A DNA stretch of 36,079 nt from the NCBI GenBank assembly GCA_023247235.1, contig JAHFGW010000005.1, positions 1-36,079 on the forward strand, in the 5' to 3' direction. Origin of the DNA: Candidatus Omnitrophota bacterium. GTDB taxonomy: Bacteria; Omnitrophota; Gorgyraeia; Aquiviventales; Aquiviventaceae. The notes beneath the pieces are model-generated. The model worked only from the letters and a program-made list of their open reading frames with translations. It was not told the DNA's origin and ran no database searches. Shown one piece after another: positions 20,889 to 33,407 of this stretch (within the stretch, counting starts at the first letter, position 1; every line of letters begins with the position of its first letter). Made by a program: the position numbers and the translations under genes.

Positions 20889-21746
20889 ATGAAGTGGAGG
20901 GTCTGGATGGTTGTGGGAGTGTTCGCCCTTGGCGCTCTTCCCGGGGCGGCGGGGGCGACCAGTGAGGTGACATCCTCTTAGACAAGTTGGTCGAGAAGGG
21001 TGTGCTCAGCAAGGTGGATGCGGGGCTGATCCGTCGGGAGATTTCCGAGAGCAAGGAGCCCCGCGACAAGCAGATTGCGAAGGACGTCGTCCCGGCCTGG
21101 GCCCGCAACTGGTCGTGGAAGGGCGACCTGCGGCTGCGCGATGAAAGCCGCAATCGGGTGGGGACGGGCAATGATGTCCACCGCCAGCGCATTCGGCTGC
21201 GTGTCGGGGCCGACGGCAAGGTCAATGATCAGCTCAAAGCCGGGTTCCGGATCGCCACGGGCAGCACGTCCGATCCGATCTCGACGAACCAGAGCTTCAA
21301 TAAGAAAACCCTCGTGTTGGATCTGGCATATCTGAGCTACACGCCCGAAGTTCCTGGCCTTGATAAGACGGCGGTGATCGGCGGCATCATGGAGAACCCG
21401 CTGTGGACCGTGGGGCCGCTCGTCTGGGACAGTGATCTGAGCTGGGACGGCGGGGCGGTGAAAGGCAGCAAGACCTTCGGGGCGGCCGAGGTCTTTATGA
21501 ACGGCGGAGCGTTTGCGCTCGATACGGATGAAACTGAAGCAGCTCGAGGCCAATGCGGCGTTCGATGCGTTTGCCGATTCTGACTTCACCGGCGGTGGGA
21601 CGAACAACCACGGCCACGTCTTCTGGGTCACGTTGGGCACGCTGAAGCACTCCACGCTGGGATTGAAATACCTGATGGGCGAGAACCTGAAGGGGGCCAA
21701 GGTGAAGGAGGATCGTGCTCAGCTGGATTGGGTGACGAAGTTCTGA
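20889..21746 (+). pseudogene. Porin_5-like outer-membrane porin, frameshifted and internally deleted
   Basis: The start is strong: AAGGAGG and GGAG before ATG 20889, then a signal peptide (WMVVGVFALGALPGAAGA). One base appears lost near 20965-20970, where the frame hits TAG after EVTSS while another frame continues DILLDKLVEKGVLSK. That second frame carries WSWKGDLRLRDESRNR and later SDLSWDGGAVKG, typical of putative porins (PF16930), and fails near 21525. The true C-terminus is in a third frame, KLKQLEANAAFDAFADS to QLDWVTKF, with a terminal Phe. Full-length relatives are around 400 residues or longer, so more than 100 residues appear missing at the second break. Its place between phoR and pstS, behind a PHO box, suggests a phosphate-starvation porin that is now lost. 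Confidence 0.78.
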
Positions 21747-21751
21747 GTGGC

Positions 21752-21805
21752 CTTACACAGAACTTACAAAGACGTCACGGGCCGTGTACGTTCCGCGGCT
21801 ATACT
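21752..21805 (+). promoter_or_regulatory. PHO box and -10 before pstS
   Basis: CTTACA (21752), CTTACA (21763) and GTCACG (21774) stand exactly 11 nt apart. TATACT (21800-21805) begins 26 nt after the start of the third repeat and matches the -10 consensus at five of six positions. The third repeat occupies the place of the -35. This is the strongest regulatory site in the window and should drive pstSCAB-phoU under PhoB. Confidence 0.8.
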
Positions 21806-21841
21806 CAGCATAGCTTGAGGGAGACGATGAGGAGGCACCAC

Positions 21842-22813
21842 ATGCGCAACCGATGGACAATGGCAACCGCCATGGCGCTCGCGCTTCTAGGCGGGGGGAC
21901 GATCGGCGTGGCCGAAACGGTGCAGCTGCATTCCAGCCTGCCCATGTATCAGCCGGTCGGCGGGGTGGCCGGGAACTTGAGCAGTGTCGGGTCCGACACC
22001 CTGAACAACCTCATGACGTATTGGGCGGAGGGCTTCGCGAAGCACTACCCCAACATCAAGATTCAGATTGAGGGGAAGGGATCCGGCACGGCGCCTCCGG
22101 CGCTCATCTCCGGGACCGCTCAGTTGGGTCCGATGTCGCGCCCGATGAAGGCGAGCGAGATGGACGCGTTTGAAAAGAAGTACGGCTACAAGCCGACCGC
22201 GATCGGGGTGGCCCTCGATGCCCTGGCCGTGTTCGTGAACAAGGACAATCCGATCCAAGCCCTCAACATCGCGCAGGTGGACGGCATCTTTTCCAGCACG
22301 CGCGCCTGCGGGGGATCGAATATCGGCCGCTGGGACCAGCTCGGCCTCACCGGGGAATGGGCGCGGCCGATCAGCCTGTATGGACGCAACTCGGCCTCCG
22401 GGACCTATGGCTACTTCAAGGAACACGCCCTCTGCAAGGGCGACTACAAGGGTTCCGTGAAGGAGCAACCAGGCTCCGCGACGGTCGTGGAAGGCGTGAC
22501 GAATGATCGGTTCGGCGTCGGCTACAGCGGCATCGGGTACAAGACGGCCGGCGTCCGCGCCGTCCCTCTGTCGGCCCTGGGCAGCACGAAGCCCATCGAA
22601 GCCGCGGCCGACAATGTCTATGAAGGCACCTATCCGTTGAGCCGCCACCTCTACATCTACGTGAACCGGGCCCCGAGCAAGCCGCTGGACCCGTTGGCGG
22701 AACAGTTCCTTCGCTACGTCCTGAGCCAAGAAGGCCAAGACGTCGTCGTGAAGGATGGCTATGTGCCCTTGCTCCCGGAGATCGTCCAAGTGGAGCTGAA
22801 GAGGCTGGAGTAG
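21842..22813 (+). CDS. pstS: Phosphate ABC transporter substrate-binding protein PstS
   Basis: 323 residues. A signal peptide (WTMATAMALALLGGGTIGVAE) is followed by a periplasmic binding domain (PF12849): SSVGSDTLNNLMTYWAEGF, IQIEGKGSGTAPPALISGTA, GPMSRPMKASE and LYGRNSASGTYGYFKE. The SDT, GSGT/GTA and RNSASGTYG segments line the phosphate pocket. It captures inorganic phosphate and hands it to PstCA. GAGGAGG 6-7 nt before the ATG supports 21842; an ATG at 21827 is possible. The PHO box at 21752 lies directly upstream. pstC starts on the base after its stop. Confidence 0.93.
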   Translation: MRNRWTMATAMALALLGGGTIGVAETVQLHSSLPMYQPVGGVAGNLSSVGSDTLNNLMTYWAEGFAKHYPNIKIQIEGKGSGTAPPALISGTAQLGPMSRPMKASEMDAFEKKYGYKPTAIGVALDALAVFVNKDNPIQALNIAQVDGIFSSTRACGGSNIGRWDQLGLTGEWARPISLYGRNSASGTYGYFKEHALCKGDYKGSVKEQPGSATVVEGVTNDRFGVGYSGIGYKTAGVRAVPLSALGSTKPIEAAADNVYEGTYPLSRHLYIYVNRAPSKPLDPLAEQFLRYVLSQEGQDVVVKDGYVPLLPEIVQVELKRLE

Positions 22814-25135
22814 ATGACCTCGTCCCTCATTGTTGCGTCCCCACCAACAACGACGGAGCGGGTACGGAACTTGGGGACGTTTTTATTTTTCTGGAGGAGG
22901 AAACGTAGAAAAATAGAACCGTCCCCAAGTTCCTCCGCGCTGGTCTTCCGGCGCCGTGTCGCCCTCATCGACCGGATCGCCCGCGGGCTGATTTCGATCA
23001 GCGGGATCGGGATTATCGCGGCGGTCCTCGGCATCGGGTTGTTTCTCCTGCTCGAAATCCTGCCGCTCTTCGCGGGCACCCGGGTGCAGGCCGGCCGCTC
23101 GCAGGCGTTCTTGTCTGATGGGGAGTCCGCCCAGCTCGTCCTGGTGGATGAACATCAGGAGATGGTGGCGGCGCTGGCCGAGGAACCGACGCTGGTGGTC
23201 GCCTCCTTGCTTCGGCCGCAGCCGCTAGAACACGTGGCCATTCCAGGCTTGGCCGGCCAGCGCGTCACGTCAGGATCACAGATCCTGCGGCAGTCGACCG
23301 TCGCCCTGGGCACCGCGCAGGGCACGGTGTGGATCGGGACCATAGACTTTCAGGCCGTCTTTGAGGGCGGGCGGCGCACCATGCATCCGGTGGTGACGGC
23401 TGAGACGCAGTTCGAGGCCATCCCCGGACATCGCATCACGCAACTAGCCTATCGACACACCGACACTCGGGCGCTGGCCGCCGCCCTCACCGACGCCGGG
23501 CCGCTGATTGTCACGCGGATCGCGATCGATCAGCCCGTGGTCGGCCCGGCCCGACGAACGCTCGACGGCCTGCGCATCCCGCTGGAAGCCGGGGCCCACC
23601 CGACCACTCTCCTCATCAACGGACCGTGCACGGAGCTCCTCGTAGGCACCAGCGAAGGCCAGCTGCTGCGCTGGGAGATTCCGGGCGAGGGGTCGCCGAA
23701 GCTGCTGGAAACCATTGAGGTCGCTCCCAATGACTCCGTCACGTCGATGGCGTACCTGCTGGGAGATCGGTCGATCGCGATCGGCACCTACGCGGGCAAG
23801 GTGGCCACGTGGTCTCCGGTGCGAGACGAAGCCGGGTCAGAGGTCCGCCTGAGGCGGATTCATACCTTTCCGACGCAGGACGCCCCCGTGAGACTCCTGA
23901 TTGCCTCGCCGCGCGACAAGGGGTTCATCAGTGTGTCGCGGGACGGCGCCGCGCAGTTACATTACATGACGACGGAGCGCACGCTGGCTCGTTGGCCCCT
24001 TCACGGAGAGCCGGTCGTCGGCTGGATGGCCCCCAAGGCCAACGGGCTCGTCCTGATCGATGGGGCCGGCACGCTGCGCCACTGGCGGATCGACAACCCG
24101 CATCCGGAGTTCAGCTGGCGCGCGCTGTTCGCTCCGATCTGGTACGAGGGCTACACCAGGCCGGCGTACATCTGGCAATCGACCGGAACGGATGATGCCG
24201 AACCCAAATTGAGCCTGGTGCCGTTAGCCTTCGGCACGCTCAAGGGGACGGTCTACGCCTTGTGCTTCGCCATTCCGCTGGCCCTGTTCGGCGCGCTCTA
24301 CTGTTCGCAGTTTCTGGACAAGTCGCTCCGTAATCCCATTAAGTCCACCATTGAGCTGATGGCCGTGCTGCCCAGCGTCGTCCTCGGCTTCGTCGCCGGA
24401 GTGGTGATGGCGCCGCTGGTTCAACAGCATCTGGTCGCGGTGCTGGCGATGCCGGTGCTCATGCCCCTGGTCGCGATGGGCACTCTCGGCGGCCTGCACG
24501 CGCTGCCGATCCCGCGCCTCCGGGCGTTGGCGCAGCGCAGGGAATTCTGGGTCTTGTCGGCCGGCGCGGTGCTGGGAGTCGGGGTGGCGGGATGGCTTGG
24601 TCCGAGTTTGGAGCGCGCATGCTTTGGCGGCAGCGTCGAAACGTGGCTGCAGGCGATGGGCACGCACTACGATCAGCGCAATGCGCTCGTCGTCGGCTGG
24701 GCGATGGGATTTGCGGTGATTCCGATTATCTTCACGATCTGCGAGGACGCCTTCTCGGCGGTTCCGAAGCACCTCGTGGGGGCGTCCTTGGCCTGCGGCG
24801 CCTCCGCCTGGCAGACGGCGTGGCGTGTGGTGCTCCCGGCCGCGGGCTCAGGCGTGTTCTCCGCGATCATGGTCGGCTTCGGCCGGGCGGTGGGCGAGAC
24901 GATGATTGTGCTGATGGCGACCGGGAACACGCCGATCATGGACTGGACGGTCTTCAACGGGTTTCGCGCCCTCTCGGCCAATATCGCCGTCGAAATACCC
25001 GAAGCCCCCCATGGCGACACGCTCTACCGCGTGCTGTTCGTGTCGGCGCTCCTGTTGTTCGGCATCACCTTCATCGTCAACACCGCCGCGGAGCTGATCC
25101 GGATGCGACTCCGGCGGCAATTGCATGGACTGTAG
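22814..25135 (+). CDS. pstC: Phosphate ABC transporter permease PstC, long form
   Basis: 773 residues, against about 320 for E. coli PstC. A cytoplasmic start is followed by helix 1 (GLISISGIGIIAAVLGIGLF, about 58-77), a periplasmic domain of some 380 residues with beta-propeller-like repeats (LLINGPCTELLVGTSEGQLL, SMAYLLGDRSIAIGTYAG, FISVSRDGAAQLHY), then the permease core from about residue 470 with the coupling loop VGASLACGASAWQTAWRVVL. Long PstC proteins of this layout are known in several proteobacteria. Residues 18-40 are encoded by a palindromic element (22866-22933). The start codon follows the pstS stop without a gap, with GGAG 5 nt before it. Confidence 0.9.
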   Translation: MTSSLIVASPPTTTERVRNLGTFLFFWRRKRRKIEPSPSSSALVFRRRVALIDRIARGLISISGIGIIAAVLGIGLFLLLEILPLFAGTRVQAGRSQAFLSDGESAQLVLVDEHQEMVAALAEEPTLVVASLLRPQPLEHVAIPGLAGQRVTSGSQILRQSTVALGTAQGTVWIGTIDFQAVFEGGRRTMHPVVTAETQFEAIPGHRITQLAYRHTDTRALAAALTDAGPLIVTRIAIDQPVVGPARRTLDGLRIPLEAGAHPTTLLINGPCTELLVGTSEGQLLRWEIPGEGSPKLLETIEVAPNDSVTSMAYLLGDRSIAIGTYAGKVATWSPVRDEAGSEVRLRRIHTFPTQDAPVRLLIASPRDKGFISVSRDGAAQLHYMTTERTLARWPLHGEPVVGWMAPKANGLVLIDGAGTLRHWRIDNPHPEFSWRALFAPIWYEGYTRPAYIWQSTGTDDAEPKLSLVPLAFGTLKGTVYALCFAIPLALFGALYCSQFLDKSLRNPIKSTIELMAVLPSVVLGFVAGVVMAPLVQQHLVAVLAMPVLMPLVAMGTLGGLHALPIPRLRALAQRREFWVLSAGAVLGVGVAGWLGPSLERACFGGSVETWLQAMGTHYDQRNALVVGWAMGFAVIPIIFTICEDAFSAVPKHLVGASLACGASAWQTAWRVVLPAAGSGVFSAIMVGFGRAVGETMIVLMATGNTPIMDWTVFNGFRALSANIAVEIPEAPHGDTLYRVLFVSALLLFGITFIVNTAAELIRMRLRRQLHGL
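22866..22933 (+). repeat. Palindromic element, copy A, inside pstC
   Basis: Perfect 14-nt outer arms (22866-22879 and 22920-22933, core GGGGACG/CGTCCCC) continue inward as an AT-rich near-palindrome, TATTTTTCT against AGAAAAATA, with two mismatches. The loop is about 14 nt. The element is in frame with pstC and codes for NLGTFLFFWRRKRRKIEPSP. Confidence 0.85.
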
Positions 25136-25144
25136 AGGCGTGCG

Positions 25145-26803
25145 ATGACCCCGGCGCGTCCCGCACGGCCCGGCCGGCGCCCGCGGCGATTTGACCGCAT
25201 TCCCATCTGGTTCACCGGCAGCTTGCTCGGCATCGCCTTGCTGATGATCGTCGGCTTGCTCGGGTTGATCATGGCGCGGGGTTTGGGGACTTTTTGGCCT
25301 TGGCCCTTGTGGGAGGTCAGCGTCGCTGACGGCACTCGCTATCTTGGCCTGGTGCACCGCACGGAGCTGATCCCCCAGCCGGCGGAGCGATCCGAGAGCC
25401 CGGCGCGCAGGACCCTCTATCGGATCGGCAACCGCGACGTGTATGGGCTGGATTTCGTCTGGGTCGACGACGCGCAGATAACGCACCGGACTCGACCGAC
25501 CGAGGCCGTCGTCTTGGAACGGTTAGAGTGGGGGCCTTTCTACGGGTTCGTGCAGAGCGTGCGGACGCCCATCCAGGCCGTCCAGGACGACCCGGCGCGT
25601 CGCTGGGAGACTCTGCGCCGTGAGCTGCCGCCTGCCCGTCGGCGCGCTCGCGCCATCAGGTACATCGAGCGGCGGGTCGTCGGCAACATCAATACCGCGA
25701 TGGAGCGGCATCGGCTGGCCTTGCGACGCTTGGAGCTCCGGCACGCGTTGGCGAACCCGTTGGGCCAGGCGCAGCAGCGCCGGCATGAGGCAGCGATAGC
25801 AGACTTGAACGCCCGCTATGCGCGGGTGGCGGCAGACCTTCGAGCCAAGCGGCAGGAGGATGCGCAGTCCCGCGCCGTCTTCGCCTCCATCGATGGCCAC
25901 GTGATAGACCTGCCGATGTCCGCCATTGTCCGGGTTTACCGGCCGAATCGGCTCTCAGTGCCTGGCCGCGTTGGCGTCTATCTCGACCGCCTCAGAGAAT
26001 TTGTGTTCGACCCTCCGCGGGAAGCCAATTCGGAGGGCGGGGTAGCGCCGGCCATCTTCGGCACGGTGATGATGACGTTGCTCATGAGCCTGGTCGTGGT
26101 TCCGCTCGGAATCCTTGCGGCCCTGTATCTCCATGAGTATGCGCGCCAAGGGTGGCTGGTCTCCAGCGTGCGAATTGCCGTGAACAATCTCGCCGGCGTC
26201 CCATCCATTGTCTTCGGAGTCTTTGGCCTGGGGTTCTTCTGTTACTTCCTCGGCGGCACGATCGATCACCTGTGGTTTCCCGAGCGGCTGCCGACTCCCA
26301 CATTCGGCGGGGGCGGCATCCTATGGGCATCGCTCACCTTGGCTCTGCTGACCGTTCCCGTGGTGATCGTGGCCACCGAGGAAGCGCTGGCCGCGGTGCC
26401 CAACGGCCTGCGGGAGGCGTCCTTAGCGTGCGGAGCGACGAAGTTCCAAACGATCTGGCGCGTCGTGCTGCCCTCGGCGGTGCCGGGCGTGCTGACGGGG
26501 ACCATCCTGGCGATGGCGCGCGGCGCCGGCGAAGTGGCGCCGCTCATGATCACCGGCGTCGTAAAGCTCGCCCCGGACCTACCGATTGACCAGGTCGCCC
26601 CATTCCTGCACCTGGAGCGCAAATTCATGCACCTGGGGTTCCACATCTACGATGTCGGATTCCAATCGCCCAATGTCGAAGCGTCCAAGGCCATGGTGTA
26701 CATGACGACCCTCCTGCTGTTGGGGGTGGTCGTGTGCCTGAATCTGGCCGCGATGCAGATCCGCGGACGGCTCCGGGCGAAACTCGGGGGAGGAGACGTA
26801 TGA
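25145..26803 (+). CDS. pstA: Phosphate ABC transporter permease PstA, long form
   Basis: 552 residues, against about 300 for E. coli PstA. Helix 1 ([20 protein letters not shown]) is followed by a periplasmic insert of about 250 residues with a charged, Arg/Ala/Leu-rich stretch (about 158-245) that looks like a long coiled coil. The permease core starts near residue 300 ([20 protein letters not shown]) and includes the coupling loop [20 protein letters not shown] and [12 protein letters not shown]. It pairs with the long PstC. The extra domains of both may meet in the periplasm. It starts 9 nt after the pstC stop. Confidence 0.9.
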
Positions 26804-26819
26804 GGCGGGAGAACTCGCG

Positions 26820-27668
26820 ATGAGGCCAGGGCTTCTGCTCGCGGTGGGGCGGCCACTGGCCGTGCCTCGGCCCGTAGGCCCTGGCGGAAGCCTCCGAGCC
26901 GGCGAGGGACCGCCGCCGACGGCCATCGACCTCGAAACCGTGAGCGTCTGGTATGGCAAGGTCCAAGCCATTCACAACGTGGGCATGCAGATTCCTGAGC
27001 GGCGGATCACGGCCTTGATCGGACCCTCCGGCTGCGGCAAGTCCACCCTGATTCGATGTCTCAACCGCCTGAACGACCTCATTGAGGGCATCCGGATTGA
27101 GGGACACATTCGGCTCCATGGCCAAGACATCCATGATCCGACTCTGGATGTGATTGAGCTGCGCAAGCGCGTGGGCATGGTCTTTCAGAAATCCAACCCG
27201 TTCCCGAAGTCGATCTACGAGAACGCCGCCTACGGCTTGCGCGTCAACGGAGAACACCGCCGCGCGGTCCTCGATCAGGTGATCGAGCAAAGCCTGCGGC
27301 GTGCCGCGCTGTGGGAGGAAGTCAAAGATCGGCTGCACACCAACGCCTTGCGCCTGTCCGGAGGCCAGCAACAGCGCCTGTGCATCGCGCGCGCGATCGC
27401 CGTCGAGCCAGAGGTGCTGCTCCTGGATGAGCCATGCTCGGCGCTCGATCCGATCGCCACGGCGAAGATCGAAGAGCTGCTCTACAGCTTGAAGGAACGC
27501 TACACCATCGTCATCGTCACGCATAATATGCAGCAGGCCGCCCGGGTGTCGGATGACACCGGGTTCCTCTTGATGGGGGAGCTCATTGAATTCGGTGCCA
27601 CCGACACGCTGTTCACGACGCCGCAGGATGCGCGGACAGAAGCCTACATTACGGGTCGGTTCGGATGA
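26820..27668 (+). CDS. pstB: Phosphate ABC transporter ATPase PstB
   Basis: 282 residues. Walker [10 protein letters not shown] (68-76), Q-loop [19 protein letters not shown], signature [16 protein letters not shown], Walker B VLLLDEP and H-loop VTHNM are all intact. About 35 poorly conserved N-terminal residues precede the usual start of the family ([19 protein letters not shown]). It energises phosphate uptake through PstCA and, with PhoU, signals transport status to PhoR. GGGAG lies 7-8 nt before the ATG, 16 nt after pstA. Confidence 0.95.
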
Positions 27669-27686
27669 GGCGGCCGGAGGCGTCAC

Positions 27687-27715
27687 TTGACACCCACAGG
27701 CTCGATGCGACAATG
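27687..27715 (+). promoter_or_regulatory. Possible internal promoter before phoU
   Basis: TTGACA at 27687-27692 is a perfect -35 hexamer; GACAAT or ACAATG, 16-17 nt later, is a weak -10. It could give phoU some expression independent of the PHO box. Confidence 0.35.
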
Positions 27716-27728
27716 AGGCAAGGCCGCG

Positions 27729-28391
27729 ATGCAACGTCAGATTGATTTAGAACTGGCCCAATTAAAAAATGCGCTGCTGCGCATGGGCAGCCTCGCCGAG
27801 CAGGCGATCGGCCTGGCGGTCAAAGCGCTGGTCAGCCGGGATGCCGGGATGGCCGGCCAGGTGGTCGGGTCCGACGAGGCGATCAACCGGCTCGAGGTGG
27901 AAATCGACGAGCTGTGCCTGCGCACGATGGCCCGATATCAGCCCGAGGCCCGCGACTTGCGCTTCTTGGCCATGGCCTTGAAGATCAACAACGATCTGGA
28001 ACGCATGGGAGACCAGGCGGTCAATATCGCGGAGCGCACCTCGGACTTGCTTAAGGAGCCGCTCCTGAAGCCCCTCATCAACATCCCCCGCATGGCGGAT
28101 ATCGTGCAGCGGATGGTCCACGACAGCCTGGACGCGTTTGTGCGGCGGGACGTGGAGCTGGCGCGCCAGGTCTGTCGCCAGGATGACGAGGTGGACCGCT
28201 ACGACGATCAGCTCTTTCGGGAACTGCTCACGTACATGATGGAAGACCCCAAGGCCATCACCCGAGCCGTTAACCTGATCCTCATCAGCCGGCACCTGGA
28301 GCGCATCGCGGACCACGCGACGAATATCGCCGAGGACGTGGTCTACCTCGTGCAAGGCAAGACCATCAAGCACCACCTCGCCGGCGAATAG
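27729..28391 (+). CDS. phoU: Phosphate signalling protein PhoU
   Basis: 220 residues, two PhoU three-helix repeats (PF01895). The repeat signatures LRFLAMALKINNDLERMGDQ then AVNIAERT, and AVNLILISRHLERIADHATN then IAEDV, carry the E/D residues that bind metal clusters. It is a peripheral protein that keeps PhoR in its inhibitory state when phosphate is plentiful and limits uptake by Pst. It ends the pst operon; a palindromic element follows 10 nt after the stop. Confidence 0.95.
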   Translation: MQRQIDLELAQLKNALLRMGSLAEQAIGLAVKALVSRDAGMAGQVVGSDEAINRLEVEIDELCLRTMARYQPEARDLRFLAMALKINNDLERMGDQAVNIAERTSDLLKEPLLKPLINIPRMADIVQRMVHDSLDAFVRRDVELARQVCRQDDEVDRYDDQLFRELLTYMMEDPKAITRAVNLILISRHLERIADHATNIAEDVVYLVQGKTIKHHLAGE

Positions 28392-28401
28392 CTGCGGCGA
28401 C

Positions 28402-28461
28402 AAGGGGACGTTTTGATTTTTGCCGTAGTGCCTGCGGCAGCAAAAATCGAAATGTCCCCTT
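28402..28461 (+). repeat. Palindromic element, copy B, after phoU
   Basis: Left arm starts AAGGGGACGTTTTGATTTTTGC; the right arm read in reverse complement starts AAGGGGACATTTCGATTTTT, so the arms differ at two positions. The inner part (GCCG...CGGC) extends the stem. The transcript would form a hairpin followed by TTCTC, so it might also limit read-through from phoU. Confidence 0.85.
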
Positions 28462-28468
28462 TCTCGCT

Positions 28469-28483
28469 CTGCTAAGATAGCAG
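28469..28483 (+). promoter_or_regulatory. Operator-like inverted repeat at the ugpQ promoter
   Basis: CTGCTA, AGA, TAGCAG: a perfect 6-3-6 inverted repeat that contains a -10-like TAAGAT (28473-28478) and ends 6 nt before the ugpQ start. A repressor bound here would block the promoter. No Shine-Dalgarno is obvious in the short leader. Confidence 0.35.
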
Positions 28484-28489
28484 ATAGCC

Positions 28490-29176
28490 ATGCAAATCAT
28501 CGCCCACCGAGGCGCCAGCGCCGAGCGTCCCGAAAACTCCCTCCTGGCCGTCGAACGCGCGCTGGAGGTCGGCGTCGATGCGATCGAGCTCGATCTGTTG
28601 TGCTCCAAGGATGGCCGCCTGATCATCCGCCACGATGACCTCGTGCAACAGGCCGGCCGCTGGCACTACGTCCGCGAGCTGACGTTGGCCGAGCTACAAC
28701 AAGTCGATCTCGGGGCCGGCGAGCGGATCCCAACCCTCGAGCAGGCCCTCGAGCGCCTGAGGGCCCGCTGCCCGCTGTTTCTGGACCTCAAAGCCCCGGG
28801 CCTGGCGACGCGGCTCGCCGACTTCCTGCGCCGTCACTCCGGTCGCGCCTCCATCCATGTCACGTCCGCGCTGCACGCGGAAATCGCTGAGATCGCCCGG
28901 TTGCGCCCGGATCTGGAGCGTTCCATTGTGGTGGGGTCGTTGCCCCTGCGGTGCGAGGGGCTGACGCGCCAGGTGGGCACGACGCAGCTCAGCCTGCCAC
29001 GCAGCTGTCTCGAGCAGGCCGTGGTCGAGCACCTCCGCGCCGAAGGCCTGCGGATTCGGGCGTACCCGGTGAATCTCCGTCGCGAGGCCGAGACGTTCGC
29101 GGCCTGGGGCGTGGAGGGCATTTTCACCGACGATCCGGCCGTCATGCGGCCGCTGCGCGGCACCCCCACACCATGA
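28490..29176 (+). CDS. ugpQ: Glycerophosphodiester phosphodiesterase
   Basis: 228 residues, a cytoplasmic GDPD of the UgpQ type (PF03009) with no signal peptide. H6 and R7 (AHRGASAERPEN), E33 and D35 (DAIELDL) and H48 (RHDD) form the active site with its divalent metal; the C-terminal GVEGIFTDDP closes the barrel. It hydrolyses glycerophosphodiesters from phospholipid head-groups to glycerol 3-phosphate and an alcohol. The stop overlaps the glpK start (ATGA), so its product feeds the next enzymes. It lies downstream of phoU, in keeping with phosphate scavenging. No transporter for glycerophosphodiesters is present here. Confidence 0.92.
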   Translation: MQIIAHRGASAERPENSLLAVERALEVGVDAIELDLLCSKDGRLIIRHDDLVQQAGRWHYVRELTLAELQQVDLGAGERIPTLEQALERLRARCPLFLDLKAPGLATRLADFLRRHSGRASIHVTSALHAEIAEIARLRPDLERSIVVGSLPLRCEGLTRQVGTTQLSLPRSCLEQAVVEHLRAEGLRIRAYPVNLRREAETFAAWGVEGIFTDDPAVMRPLRGTPTP

Positions 29177-30657
29177 TCCTTGCCATCGACCAGGGCACGA
29201 CCGGCACGACAGTGCTGCTCGTGGACCGACGGTGGCGCGTGATCGCGCGCGCCTACGCGGAGCTGCCTCAGCACTATCCGCGTCCGGGCTGGGTCGAGCA
29301 CCGTCCGCAGGAAATTCTCGATGTCACCAGGCGCGTGATCCGGGCGGCGCTGGCCGCAGGGCGCATTCGCCCAAGCCGCCTGGCGGCGATTGGCATCACG
29401 AATCAGCGTGAGACGACGCTGCTCTGGGATCGACGCACGGGCCGGCCGGTGGCGAATGCCGTGGTCTGGCAGTGCCGCCGCAGCGCGCCGCTGTGCGACG
29501 CGCTCAAGGCGCGCGGCCTCGAACCGCGCATTCGCCGACGCACCGGCCTGGTTCTGGACGCCTACTTCTCGGGCACGAAAATCCGGTGGCTGCTGGACCA
29601 CGTGCCCGGCGCGCGGCGCCGGGCCGAGCGCGGCGAACTCGCCTTCGGCACGGTCGACACCTGGCTGTTGTGGCAGCTCACGGGCGGCAAGGTCCACGCG
29701 ACCGATTTCACGAACGCGTCGCGCACGCTCCTCTACAACATCCACACGCATCGCTGGGACCCCGCGCTGCTGGGCCTGTTTCGGGTCCCTGCGTCGCTGT
29801 TGCCCCAGGTCAACCCCCCGGCGGGTGTCTTCGGGCGCACCAGCCCGCGCGGCTGGCTCCCCGCGGGCATTCCCATTGCCGGGATGGCGGGGGATCAGCA
29901 GGCCTCGATGGTGGGCCATGGCTGCCTGGCGCCGGGGACCGCGAAGAATACGTATGGCACCGGATGCTTTCTCTTGCTGCACACGGGCCGCAAGCCGGTG
30001 ACGAGCCGTCACGGGCTGCTGACCACGCTGGTGTATGACGGCACCGCCCAGCCCGCGTATGCCTTGGAGGGCAGCGTGTTCATTGCCGGCGCCGCCATCC
30101 AATGGCTGCGGGATGAGCTGCGGCTCATCGCAAGCGCCGCCCAGACCGAGGCGATCGCGCGGCGCATCCCAGACACCGGGGGCGTCTATGTCGTCCCCGC
30201 GTTCGTCGGGCTGGGCGCGCCGTATTGGGACATGGGGGCGCGCGGCGCCATCGTCGGGCTGACGCGCGGCTCGGACCGCCACGCGCTGGTACGGGCCACT
30301 CTGGAATCGCTCGCCTATCAGACGCGCGACGTCGTGGACGCCATGCAGCGCGACAGCGGCATCACGCTGCGTGAACTGCGGGTCGATGGAGGGGCGGCCC
30401 AGAACGATTGGCTGATGCAATTTCAAGCGGACTTGCTTGGCATCCCGGTGCGCCGGCCGCCGCTCATCGCCAACACCGGACGGGGCGCGGCCTTTCTCGC
30501 CGGCGTCGGCATCGGCTGGTGGAGGGCGCAAGATCACGCGCGCCTTGGCGAGCGGGCCGGCCGCATGTTTCGGCCCCGGATGCGCGCCGTTGAGCGTCGG
30601 CGGCGCTACGCCGGCTGGCAGGACGCGGTGGCGCGCGTGCGCTCCCGGGGTTCGTAA
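29173..30657 (+). CDS. glpK: Glycerol kinase
   Basis: 494 residues (FGGY family). ILAIDQGTTGTTVLLVD is the N-terminal phosphate-binding loop; ITNQRETTLLWDRRTGRP, VWQCRRS, TDFTNASRTLLYNI, GMAGDQQAS and NTYGTGCFLLLHTG follow in the expected order. The C-terminal domain has LRVDGGAAQNDWLMQFQADL. It phosphorylates glycerol to glycerol 3-phosphate using ATP. It overlaps ugpQ by 4 nt and is followed by glpD 17 nt later, giving a three-gene catabolic unit. The expected allosteric-site residues were not checked. Confidence 0.95.
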   Translation: MILAIDQGTTGTTVLLVDRRWRVIARAYAELPQHYPRPGWVEHRPQEILDVTRRVIRAALAAGRIRPSRLAAIGITNQRETTLLWDRRTGRPVANAVVWQCRRSAPLCDALKARGLEPRIRRRTGLVLDAYFSGTKIRWLLDHVPGARRRAERGELAFGTVDTWLLWQLTGGKVHATDFTNASRTLLYNIHTHRWDPALLGLFRVPASLLPQVNPPAGVFGRTSPRGWLPAGIPIAGMAGDQQASMVGHGCLAPGTAKNTYGTGCFLLLHTGRKPVTSRHGLLTTLVYDGTAQPAYALEGSVFIAGAAIQWLRDELRLIASAAQTEAIARRIPDTGGVYVVPAFVGLGAPYWDMGARGAIVGLTRGSDRHALVRATLESLAYQTRDVVDAMQRDSGITLRELRVDGGAAQNDWLMQFQADLLGIPVRRPPLIANTGRGAAFLAGVGIGWWRAQDHARLGERAGRMFRPRMRAVERRRRYAGWQDAVARVRSRGS

Positions 30658-30674
30658 CCTAGCCGGCGCATCCC

Positions 30675-32276
30675 ATGCAGCGCGCGGAGCTTCTCGCCCA
30701 GCTCGGGGCGCAACGCTTCGATGTCCTGGTGATCGGCGGCGGCATTGTCGGGGCCGGCATCGCGCGCGATGCGGCGCTGCGGGGCCTGCGGGTCGCGCTC
30801 ATCGAGCAGGGCGACTTCGCCAGCGGCACCAGCTCCAAAACCTCCAAGCTCATCCACGGCGGGCTGCGCTACCTCGAGCACGGGCATCTCGGCTTGGTGC
30901 GCGAGAGCCTGCGCGAGCGTCGCATCCTGCGCCGCATCGCCCCGGCGCTGGTCACCCCGCTCTCCCTGCTGCTGCCGGTGTTCCAGGGCGATCGACGCGC
31001 GCCCTGGATGATCCAACTGGGTTTGTGGATCTACGCGCTGCTGGCGTGGCAGGATCGGCTCGAGCGTTACCGGATGGTGTCGGCCCGCCAGGCGCTGAAG
31101 CTTGAACCGGCGCTGCAGCCGGAGGGATTGCGGGCCGCCGGACTGTACGCGGACTGCCAGATGGACGACGCGCGGCTGTGCCTGGTCAACATCCTCCAGG
31201 CGGTGGAGCACGGCGCGGTGTGTTGCAACTATGTCCGTTTCCGCGCCTTTCTGAAAACCGACCAGCGACCGTGCGGCGCGATCGGCGAGGACGTGCGGAC
31301 GGGCCGCGCCTACGCGATCCAAGCACGCGTGGTGGTCAACGCGACCGGGCCCTGGGCAGATCGGATCCGGCGATTCAGCGATGCGAAATGTCCCGAGCGC
31401 CTCGCCCCCACCAAGGGGATTCACCTGGTGTTGCCGCGCGCGGGCCTTCGCCACGGGTTGTTCATTCAAGGACGGCGCGCGGCCGGCCGCATGCTGTTCG
31501 TGCTGCCGTGGGGGCAGCAGACGCTCGTGGGCACGACGGAATCGCCGGTGGGCACGTCGCTTGAGCACTTGCACGCCAGCGCCGAAGAAGTCGGCTACCT
31601 GTTGAGCGAGTTCAACCGCGTGCTCCCGCAGGCCCGCATGAGGGAGCAGGACATCGTCGGGACGTTCGCGGGGGCGCGCCCGTTGCTCGGATTCTCCGGC
31701 TCGCCGCAGGCCGCTTCACGAGAGCATCGCCTGGAGATTGATCGCCTGGGCCTGGTGAGCGTCCTGGGCGGCAAGTACACCACCTCCCGCCGGATGGCGC
31801 AACAGACGGTGGATGTGGTCGTGCGCCGCTATCGCTTGGCGGCGCGCCGGTGCCAGACCGCGCGCCTGCCCCTGGTCGGAGGGGAGATGGACGCGGCCGA
31901 ACATGCCCTGCGGGCGGCCAGCGCGCTTGAGACGCCGGCCCTAGGACGCTTGCTGATCCGCTATGGCCCCAGGGCGCGCGAGCTGCTGCGGTTGCTTGAG
32001 GAGGACTACTCGCTGGCACAGCCGGTCTGCGCCCACCACGACGTCCTGCAGGTGGAGCTGGCGCATGCGCTGCGCGGGGAGCTCGCCTGCTCGATCACCG
32101 ATGTGCTGGCTCGCCGCACGCGGATCGTCTGGAGCGCCTGCCACGGCCTGGAGGCGTTGCCGCGGATTGCGGAGCTATGCCAGCGCTATGGGGGGATGGG
32201 TCCGGAAGAGGTCGCGCGGCAGCGCCAGGAGTACGAACGGTGTATCGCTGAGAGCCTGAGTTTTCGCTCGGAGTGA
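30675..32276 (+). CDS. glpD: Aerobic glycerol-3-phosphate dehydrogenase
   Basis: 533 residues. The FAD-binding start FDVLVIGGGIVGAGIARDAA is followed by SSKTSKLIHGGLRYLEHGHL, ATGPWADRIR, PTKGIHLVLPR, VLPWGQQTLVGTTE and VLGGKYTTSRRMAQ, all hallmarks of GlpD. It is a flavoprotein on the inner face of the membrane that oxidises glycerol 3-phosphate to dihydroxyacetone phosphate and passes electrons to quinone. It completes the ugpQ-glpK-glpD route. A palindromic element with a T-run begins 3 nt after the stop and may terminate the transcript. Confidence 0.95.
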   Translation: MQRAELLAQLGAQRFDVLVIGGGIVGAGIARDAALRGLRVALIEQGDFASGTSSKTSKLIHGGLRYLEHGHLGLVRESLRERRILRRIAPALVTPLSLLLPVFQGDRRAPWMIQLGLWIYALLAWQDRLERYRMVSARQALKLEPALQPEGLRAAGLYADCQMDDARLCLVNILQAVEHGAVCCNYVRFRAFLKTDQRPCGAIGEDVRTGRAYAIQARVVVNATGPWADRIRRFSDAKCPERLAPTKGIHLVLPRAGLRHGLFIQGRRAAGRMLFVLPWGQQTLVGTTESPVGTSLEHLHASAEEVGYLLSEFNRVLPQARMREQDIVGTFAGARPLLGFSGSPQAASREHRLEIDRLGLVSVLGGKYTTSRRMAQQTVDVVVRRYRLAARRCQTARLPLVGGEMDAAEHALRAASALETPALGRLLIRYGPRARELLRLLEEDYSLAQPVCAHHDVLQVELAHALRGELACSITDVLARRTRIVWSACHGLEALPRIAELCQRYGGMGPEEVARQRQEYERCIAESLSFRSE

Positions 32277-32278
32277 AC

Positions 32279-32341
32279 AATGGGGACGTTGCGATATTGT
32301 GCTCCCGCGCGACCTCTGGCAAAAATCGAAACGTCCCCATT
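32279..32341 (+). repeat. Palindromic element, copy C, between glpD and the methyltransferase gene
   Basis: Arms AATGGGGACGTT (from 32279) and AACGTCCCCATT (to 32341) pair perfectly, and the inner AT-rich part pairs with a few mismatches. The right arm (AAAAATCGAAACGTCCCC) is nearly identical to copy B. TTTTTCT directly follows the last C of the stem, so the transcript would resemble an intrinsic terminator for glpD. Confidence 0.85.
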
Positions 32342-32346
32342 TTTCT

Positions 32347-33303
32347 ATGCGTAGTGAAGTCAAAGCGCTGCCGGCGGAATTCCTCGAACGCTTGCGTCGA
32401 ATACTTCCCTCCAGCCAGTTCGATACGGTCGCCAACACGTTCGCCGAGCCCAAGCCCACGACCTTCCGAGTGAATACGCTCAAAGCGACCACAGCCGACG
32501 TGCGGGCTGAGCTGGAGGGCGTAGGGTTTCGGCTGAAGGGAGTGGCCTGGTATCCGGACGCCTTCGTGATGGAGACAGGCCGGTTGCGCGAGCTCCAAGA
32601 GACGGCCGCCTACCAGCAGGGCGGCCTCTATGTGCAAAGCCTCTCCAGTATGCTGCCGCCGCTCGTCCTGGGGCCACAGCCCCATGAGGAGGTGCTGGAT
32701 CTTGCCGCGGCCCCGGGCAGCAAGACGACCCAAATGGCCTGCCTCATGCGCGGAGCAGGGCGGCTCGTCGCCATTGATAACAATCGCGTGCGCTTCTACA
32801 GGCTGCGCGCGAACCTGGCGCTGCAGGACGCCCGGAACGTCGAGCCGCTCCTGCGGGCCGGCGAGGCGGCCGGGCGCATGTTCCCGGACCGCTTTGACCG
32901 GGTGCTGGTGGATGCTCCGTGCAGCGCCGAGGGCCGCTTTGACGTTCGGGAGCCCGCCTCGTATCGCTATTGGCGGCCGGGGAAAATTCATGAGATGGTC
33001 CGCAAGCAGCGACGGCTTCTGGCGGCGGGCCTGGCCGCGCTGCGGCCCGGCGGCCTGCTGGTCTATTCGACGTGCACGTTCGCTCCGGAAGAAAACGAGG
33101 GCGTGGTGAGCTGGGCGTTGGCGTCCTGGGGGGAGACGGTGGCCTTGGAGCCTGTTGAGTTGCCCGGCCCGCAGGCGCAGCCGGGGTTGACTCGATGGCA
33201 GGACGTCCAATTTCAGCCGGCGATGCGCGCCACCGCGCGCATCCTGCCGAGCGCGCAGATGGAAGGATTCTTTCTCGCGCGCCTGCGCAAGAAGAGTTCA
33301 TAG
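32347..33303 (+). CDS. RsmF/NSUN-type RNA cytosine-5 methyltransferase
   Basis: 318 residues. The SAM-binding motif VLDLAAAPGSKTTQMA, VLVDAPCSAEGRF with one catalytic Cys, and LVYSTCTFAPEENEGVV with the second are typical of the Nol1/Nop2/Sun family. It should methylate C5 of a cytosine in rRNA or tRNA. The N-terminal domain (about 1-100) has FRVNTLKATTADVRAEL, but the extra C-terminal RNA-binding domains of E. coli RsmF are lacking. The ATG at 32347 lies 5 nt after palindrome copy C and has no ribosome site; a GTG inside the element (32299) is in frame. The last codons and stop lie in a heptamer repeat. Confidence 0.88.
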   Translation: MRSEVKALPAEFLERLRRILPSSQFDTVANTFAEPKPTTFRVNTLKATTADVRAELEGVGFRLKGVAWYPDAFVMETGRLRELQETAAYQQGGLYVQSLSSMLPPLVLGPQPHEEVLDLAAAPGSKTTQMACLMRGAGRLVAIDNNRVRFYRLRANLALQDARNVEPLLRAGEAAGRMFPDRFDRVLVDAPCSAEGRFDVREPASYRYWRPGKIHEMVRKQRRLLAAGLAALRPGGLLVYSTCTFAPEENEGVVSWALASWGETVALEPVELPGPQAQPGLTRWQDVQFQPAMRATARILPSAQMEGFFLARLRKKSS

Positions 33304-33308
33304 TTCGG
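33295..33308 (+). repeat. Heptamer repeat, two units, at the methyltransferase stop
   Basis: AGTTCAT then AGTTCGG, the same family as the AGTTCGT array at the end of ccsA. It again provides the final Ser-Ser and the TAG stop of the gene before it. Confidence 0.6.
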
Positions 33309-33407
33309 TGTAAGAAAGAGACGGAACAGCGCCGCTGGATGGCGGGTCTCGACGCCGCGCCTGGCGCGGGTATAGAATACGACCATGGAACCGAGGAGGG
33401 AACCTCG

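Follow-up and report, generated by a model that had tools for sequence, protein, structure and literature searches.

A mobile-like 68-bp palindrome has entered the permease gene pstC of a Candidatus Omnitrophota genome and is read in frame as part of the protein. We consider it likely (probability about 0.6) that this insertion supplies or reinforces a hairpin at the pstS/pstC boundary and thereby biases output towards the binding protein PstS. New here are the link between the palindrome and the terminal repeats of RAYT genes, a second copy within coding sequence, and the finding that hairpins are conserved in position at the pstS/pstC junctions of other genomes.

The palindrome in pstC and its family

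The window, which is the whole 36,079-nt stretch of DNA that was analysed, contains a pst operon and copies of the element family, arranged as follows.

21728..22813, + strand: pstS, phosphate-binding protein (Pfam PBP_like_2, E=2.9e-36; longest ORF)
22814..25135, + strand: pstC permease, 773 aa (BPD_transp_1; TIGR02138 PstC match just below cut-off; orthologue alignment)
22866..22933, + strand: 68-bp palindromic element in pstC, codons ~18-40 (predicted RNA hairpin, -38.5 kcal/mol)
22873..22926, + strand: 54-nt core GGGGAC...GTCCCC of the element family (family comparison)
22907..22926, + strand: right arm of the pstC copy, AGAAAAATAGAACCGTCCCC (19/20 identity to the downstream terminal inverted repeat of RAYT genes in G020, L065, and G027, L057)
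25145..26803, + strand: pstA, large variant, 552 aa (TIGR00974 above cut-off)
26820..27668, + strand: pstB ATPase (ABC_tran)
27729..28391, + strand: phoU (PhoU domain, E=3e-54)
28404..28459, + strand: family copy, intergenic, 12 nt 3' of the phoU stop
32282..32338, + strand: family copy, intergenic, 5 nt 3' of a glpD-like stop

The pstS stop codon, TAG at 22811-22813, directly adjoins the pstC ATG at 22814, and the real start of pstS is probably later than that of the longest ORF, for example at ATG 21843. The first ~45 codons of pstC encode a variable cytoplasmic N-terminus that is followed by TM1. PstC (773 aa) and PstA (552 aa), encoded at 22814-26803, are both much larger than usual. No Pfam family matched PstC between residues ~90 and 450, and several phyla have the large form.

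The palindrome, GGAACTTGGGGACG(...)CGTCCCCAAGTTCC, occupies exactly positions 22866-22933 inside pstC, begins 52 nt past the pstC ATG and extends from +52 to +120 relative to the pstS stop. The outer 14 nt of the arms are all paired, as are 25 of the 27 arm positions overall, with two mismatches. The minimum free energy of the predicted RNA was -38.5 kcal/mol compared to a mean of -15.3 for shuffled sequences (z = -8.46), and none of 200 shuffles equalled it. Neither an intrinsic terminator nor a promoter was found at the element by terminator and promoter scans, a U-run is absent 3' of the stem, and no known Rfam RNA was found within 21700-33400.

A covariance model was built from 20 GGGGAC...GTCCCC copies, and it matched 34 places at E<0.01 across the 1.34-Mb genome. 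The 20 aligned copies share an 18-pair stem with compensatory changes (24 cells altered on both sides, compared to a shuffled mean of 8.9). The majority of copies are no more than a few bases from the end of a gene, and only 2 of ~34, those in pstC and nuoL, are clearly genic. An earlier sequence-only reading of this DNA had described a 68-bp palindrome with perfect 14-nt arms in the pstC frame, placed the same family between genes at 28402 and 32279, and proposed a search for it elsewhere in the genome. The coordinates and arms were recovered, intergenic copies were found at 28404-28459 and 32282-32338, and the search returned the 34 places given above. When 59 genomes were searched with the model, abundant copies were found in four genomes of the same family (G002, G003, G018 and G024), and the others held few or none.

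Origin of the element and its insertion into pstC

In the TIRtron/TIRYT arrangement, GGGGWSAS terminal inverted repeats (TIRs) stand around Y1 genes (Di Nocera et al. 2013, PMC3733652). GAAAAATAGAACCGTCCCC, the TIR downstream of the two RAYT genes listed above, agreed at 19 of 20 bases with the right arm of the pstC copy; these genes belong to two related genomes and not to the host genome. TIRs of the same type stand at steady distances around many Y1 genes of relatives. GGGGAC-type motifs flanked 21 of 33 RAYT genes compared to 56 of 290 control pieces, which were similar in total length and unmatched in base composition. Covariance-model scans of the RAYT loci found little, with one match at E=2e-4, since each TIR stands alone on its side of the gene; it was direct comparison of the TIRs that gave the match. 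On the strength of this likeness, the pstC element probably derives from a RAYT-type Y1 element as a miniature form without transposase. The 68-bp palindrome would consist of the left and right terminal inverted repeats of a RAYT/TIRYT-type element, with a short loop between them and the gene absent.

A RAYT-type Y1 gene in the same genome, which the sequence-only reading had suggested looking for, was not found: the Y1 transposase (PF01797) had no match in the host genome (G000), a draft assembly that is 90.7% complete. Such a gene is an accompanying feature that is not demanded of non-autonomous copies. PF01797 was present in 47 of the 59 genomes searched among relatives. No Y1 transposase was found in G000, G003, G018 or G024, the genomes with the most element copies, and most relatives that bear Y1 genes are without this family. 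The split between element-rich and Y1-bearing genomes may have arisen because the mobiliser was lost, or may come from gaps that repeats leave in assemblies.

The family is a dispersed, multicopy palindrome with an arm that matches Y1-flanking repeats. It shares with the TIRYT/RAYT TIR repeats (PMC3733652) the small size and dispersal of its palindromes, their relation to TIRs, the GGGG-type motif and a position mostly just 3' of genes. It differs in that it belongs to Candidatus Omnitrophota, was found without a Y1 gene in its host assembly and has copies inside pstC and nuoL. The GTAG tetranucleotide that marks the palindrome foot in classical GTAG-REPs (RAYT REPs) is absent from both feet of the pstC copy. 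A RAYT gene in another genome (L194 1565-2574, G022:C120) is preceded by a family-like palindrome at ~190 bp and flanked on each side by GGGGACAGTATA half repeats. The host genome also holds a different palindrome, GGTGTCTGGCACC...GTGCCTGACACC (L097 1801-1857, G000:C3:3697-3753), similar to the GTGTCAGACAC repeats around other RAYT genes (L060, L069); judged by this resemblance, it is perhaps a second terminal-repeat family.

Translated in frame, the pstC palindrome reads RNLGTFLFFWRRKRRKIEPSPSS, and it is spanned by codons ~18-40, of which IEPSPSSSALVFR is an example peptide. The residues upstream of the element, VASPPTTTERVR, resemble those of relatives (for example VESPLPTAERSR in G011), and the residues downstream, FRRRVALIDRIAR, align throughout orthologues. 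In this PstC 44 residues precede F45, compared to 13-29 in orthologues for which we chose the likeliest start codons. The sequence-only reading had asked whether relatives lack residues 18-40, and orthologous N-termini are at least 15 residues shorter; the extent of the insertion is approximate, since the PstC N-terminus is too variable to fix its boundaries or a target-site duplication. A single other possible start occurs within the first 75 codons after ATG 22814, a TTG that belongs to the element itself, and the stretch from the element to TM1 has no start codon. The element is therefore translated, at least in most part. That a mobile-like palindrome landed behind the start codon and left pstC intact, as had been proposed, is borne out by the dispersed family, by the residues missing in relatives and by the likeness of the arm to RAYT TIRs. 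The element would have entered the unconstrained cytoplasmic N-terminus of PstC, with the gene staying open and ~20 extra residues being translated.

A second in-frame copy is located in nuoL (L003 1501-1588, G000:C6:14830-14917). It sits in a hypervariable loop of NuoL, where nine relatives are shorter and without the element, and directly behind its 3' arm part of that arm is repeated in tandem over 30 nt (GKMDMSPISVGKMDLSPIS). Copies of the element are open in 4.2 of the 6 reading frames on average. Rickettsia palindromic elements (Ogata et al. 2000, 2002, as relayed in PMC10969869) offer a parallel, since they too have entered protein genes in frame, among them housekeeping genes, and are translated. 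They are about 100-150 bp long, compared to 54-68 bp here, and are unrelated in sequence to the GGGGAC/GTCCCC consensus; the present family further differs in that so few of its copies are clearly genic and in that hairpins are conserved at the place where the pstC copy lies.

Hairpins at the pstS/pstC boundary in other genomes

The fold z-score at 64 pstS-pstC junctions from several phyla dipped 0 to +60 nt past the pstS stop (region minima versus control blocks, p=1e-21), the dip was also seen in Omnitrophota with the host genome left out (p=0.002), and the signal past the pstC stop was much weaker (p=9e-8); these p-values are optimistic because homologous loci share ancestry. The dip is kept in position, not in sequence. 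Unrelated hairpins occupy the same spot: that of G011 has 13-nt perfect arms, those of G045 and G004 are strong and lie inside pstC, and that of G012 lies in the leader. Among 65 loci, hairpins were clearly intergenic in 28 and inside pstC without an alternative start in 13; in the remaining 24 the placement depends on the start codon. Only weak hairpins were found at the boundary in four of nine Omnitrophota operons (L100, L101, L102 and L106). The G011 hairpin was considered as a dispersed repeat of its own genome, and this was rejected on finding it in a single place there; an element origin is therefore not general. No direct report of pstS-pstC hairpins was found in the open literature searched.

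Where the hairpins lie in coding sequence, selection in relatives is evident at the nucleotide level. Synonymous-codon resampling of the first 40 pstC codons gave z<-2 in 12 of 29 loci compared to 3 of 114 control regions within those genes (p=5e-7); observed and resampled sequences alike were scored by their best window. In a Dadabacteria/Desulfobacterota-like set, the arms of the coding hairpins covary, with 91% of cells paired and none of 500 shuffles as high. Codon-aligned columns 4-17 of these arms are GC, AU or UA, and the encoded residues switch A/T/S with L/F/I. At six loci (L112, L114, L127, L108, L113 and L138) the first codons of pstC hold a hairpin and covary (A/T/S with L/F/I, S/A with K/R).

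Since hairpins are kept at the same position in many relatives, a regulatory role for the pstC insertion is likely. The leading alternative is that the copy could be a neutral insertion, a selfish palindrome in a tolerant N-terminal stretch with no regulatory effect, as in the Rickettsia elements. The second in-frame copy in the NuoL loop, the ease of in-frame survival that follows from the open frames, the free variation of PstC N-termini and the location of most copies at other gene ends all agree with it, but unrelated hairpins have been kept at this position in many orthologues beyond the synonymous-codon expectation, and we regard neutrality as unlikely, though the most serious of the competing explanations.

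Predicted effect on the PstS to PstC ratio

The E. coli malE REP and the B. subtilis pstS/pst region provide stem-loop stabilisers after binding-protein genes. The pstC element shares with these, and with the Clostridial examples, a strong hairpin just 3' of the binding-protein gene (-38.5 kcal/mol here, behind pstS) at the head of an importer operon, and differs in that it lies inside the permease coding sequence and is transposon-derived. In Clostridia, stem-loops that follow binding-protein genes are reported to set the stoichiometry of ABC importers (PMC9045158).

The pstC mRNA would form a very strong hairpin 52 nt past the pstS stop, and this would supply or reinforce a boundary structure that is kept with unrelated sequences in many lineages. 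Most likely, the hairpin would serve as a decay boundary that shields the upstream pstS message from 3'-to-5' exonucleases, would perhaps also slow early elongation of pstC, and PstS would exceed PstC as a result. Tuning of the ratio of PstS to permease had been proposed in the sequence-only reading; it gains indirect comparative support from the junction dip, the synonymous-codon control and the covariation, and we infer from the comparison the effect itself, on mRNA stability and protein ratio, and the retention of this copy for it. Ribosomes translating pstC would unwind an in-frame hairpin, which weakens a pure exonuclease-block model.

The hairpin might instead act on pstC translation, by slower early elongation or membrane targeting, and not on decay of the pstS mRNA. 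Its position is suitable, in frame in the early coding region and, at 52 nt past the ATG, clear of the initiating ribosome; however, many hairpins of relatives are intergenic and precede the pstC start, where they are unable to slow elongation, and this explanation is improbable. Less probable again is partial termination of transcription at the pstS/pstC boundary. This mode of action has been proposed for ABC operons of Clostridia, and in R. cellulolyticum it is ascribed to stem-loops behind binding-protein genes (PMC9045158), but here the stem has no U-run 3' of it and the terminator scan found no terminator. A pstC start 3' of the element, which would leave it untranslated and which the sequence-only reading had offered as an alternative, has nothing for it beyond the closeness of the element to the start codon and was ruled out for want of a suitable start codon, the TTG inside the element being the sole candidate and the upstream residues resembling those of relatives.

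A wider reading, held tentatively and at somewhat less than even odds, is that the post-pstS hairpin is an old, sequence-independent working part of pst operons of this type across several phyla, often set in pstC codons that are selected for their RNA pairing and their protein product together, and that here a domesticated transposon palindrome supplies it and encodes part of the permease as well. The insertion of a mobile-like palindrome at the pstS/pstC boundary joins two subjects that are usually treated separately, the translation of mobile palindromes within proteins and the setting of importer subunit ratios by hairpins. If the proposed role is true, a mobile repeat could be co-opted for RNA regulation and for coding simultaneously, and the junction of pstS and pstC would offer a simple natural series of unique GC, intergenic and transposon-derived hairpins for testing binding-protein excess. 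The covarying coding hairpins suggest that protein-coding codons are held by RNA pairing.
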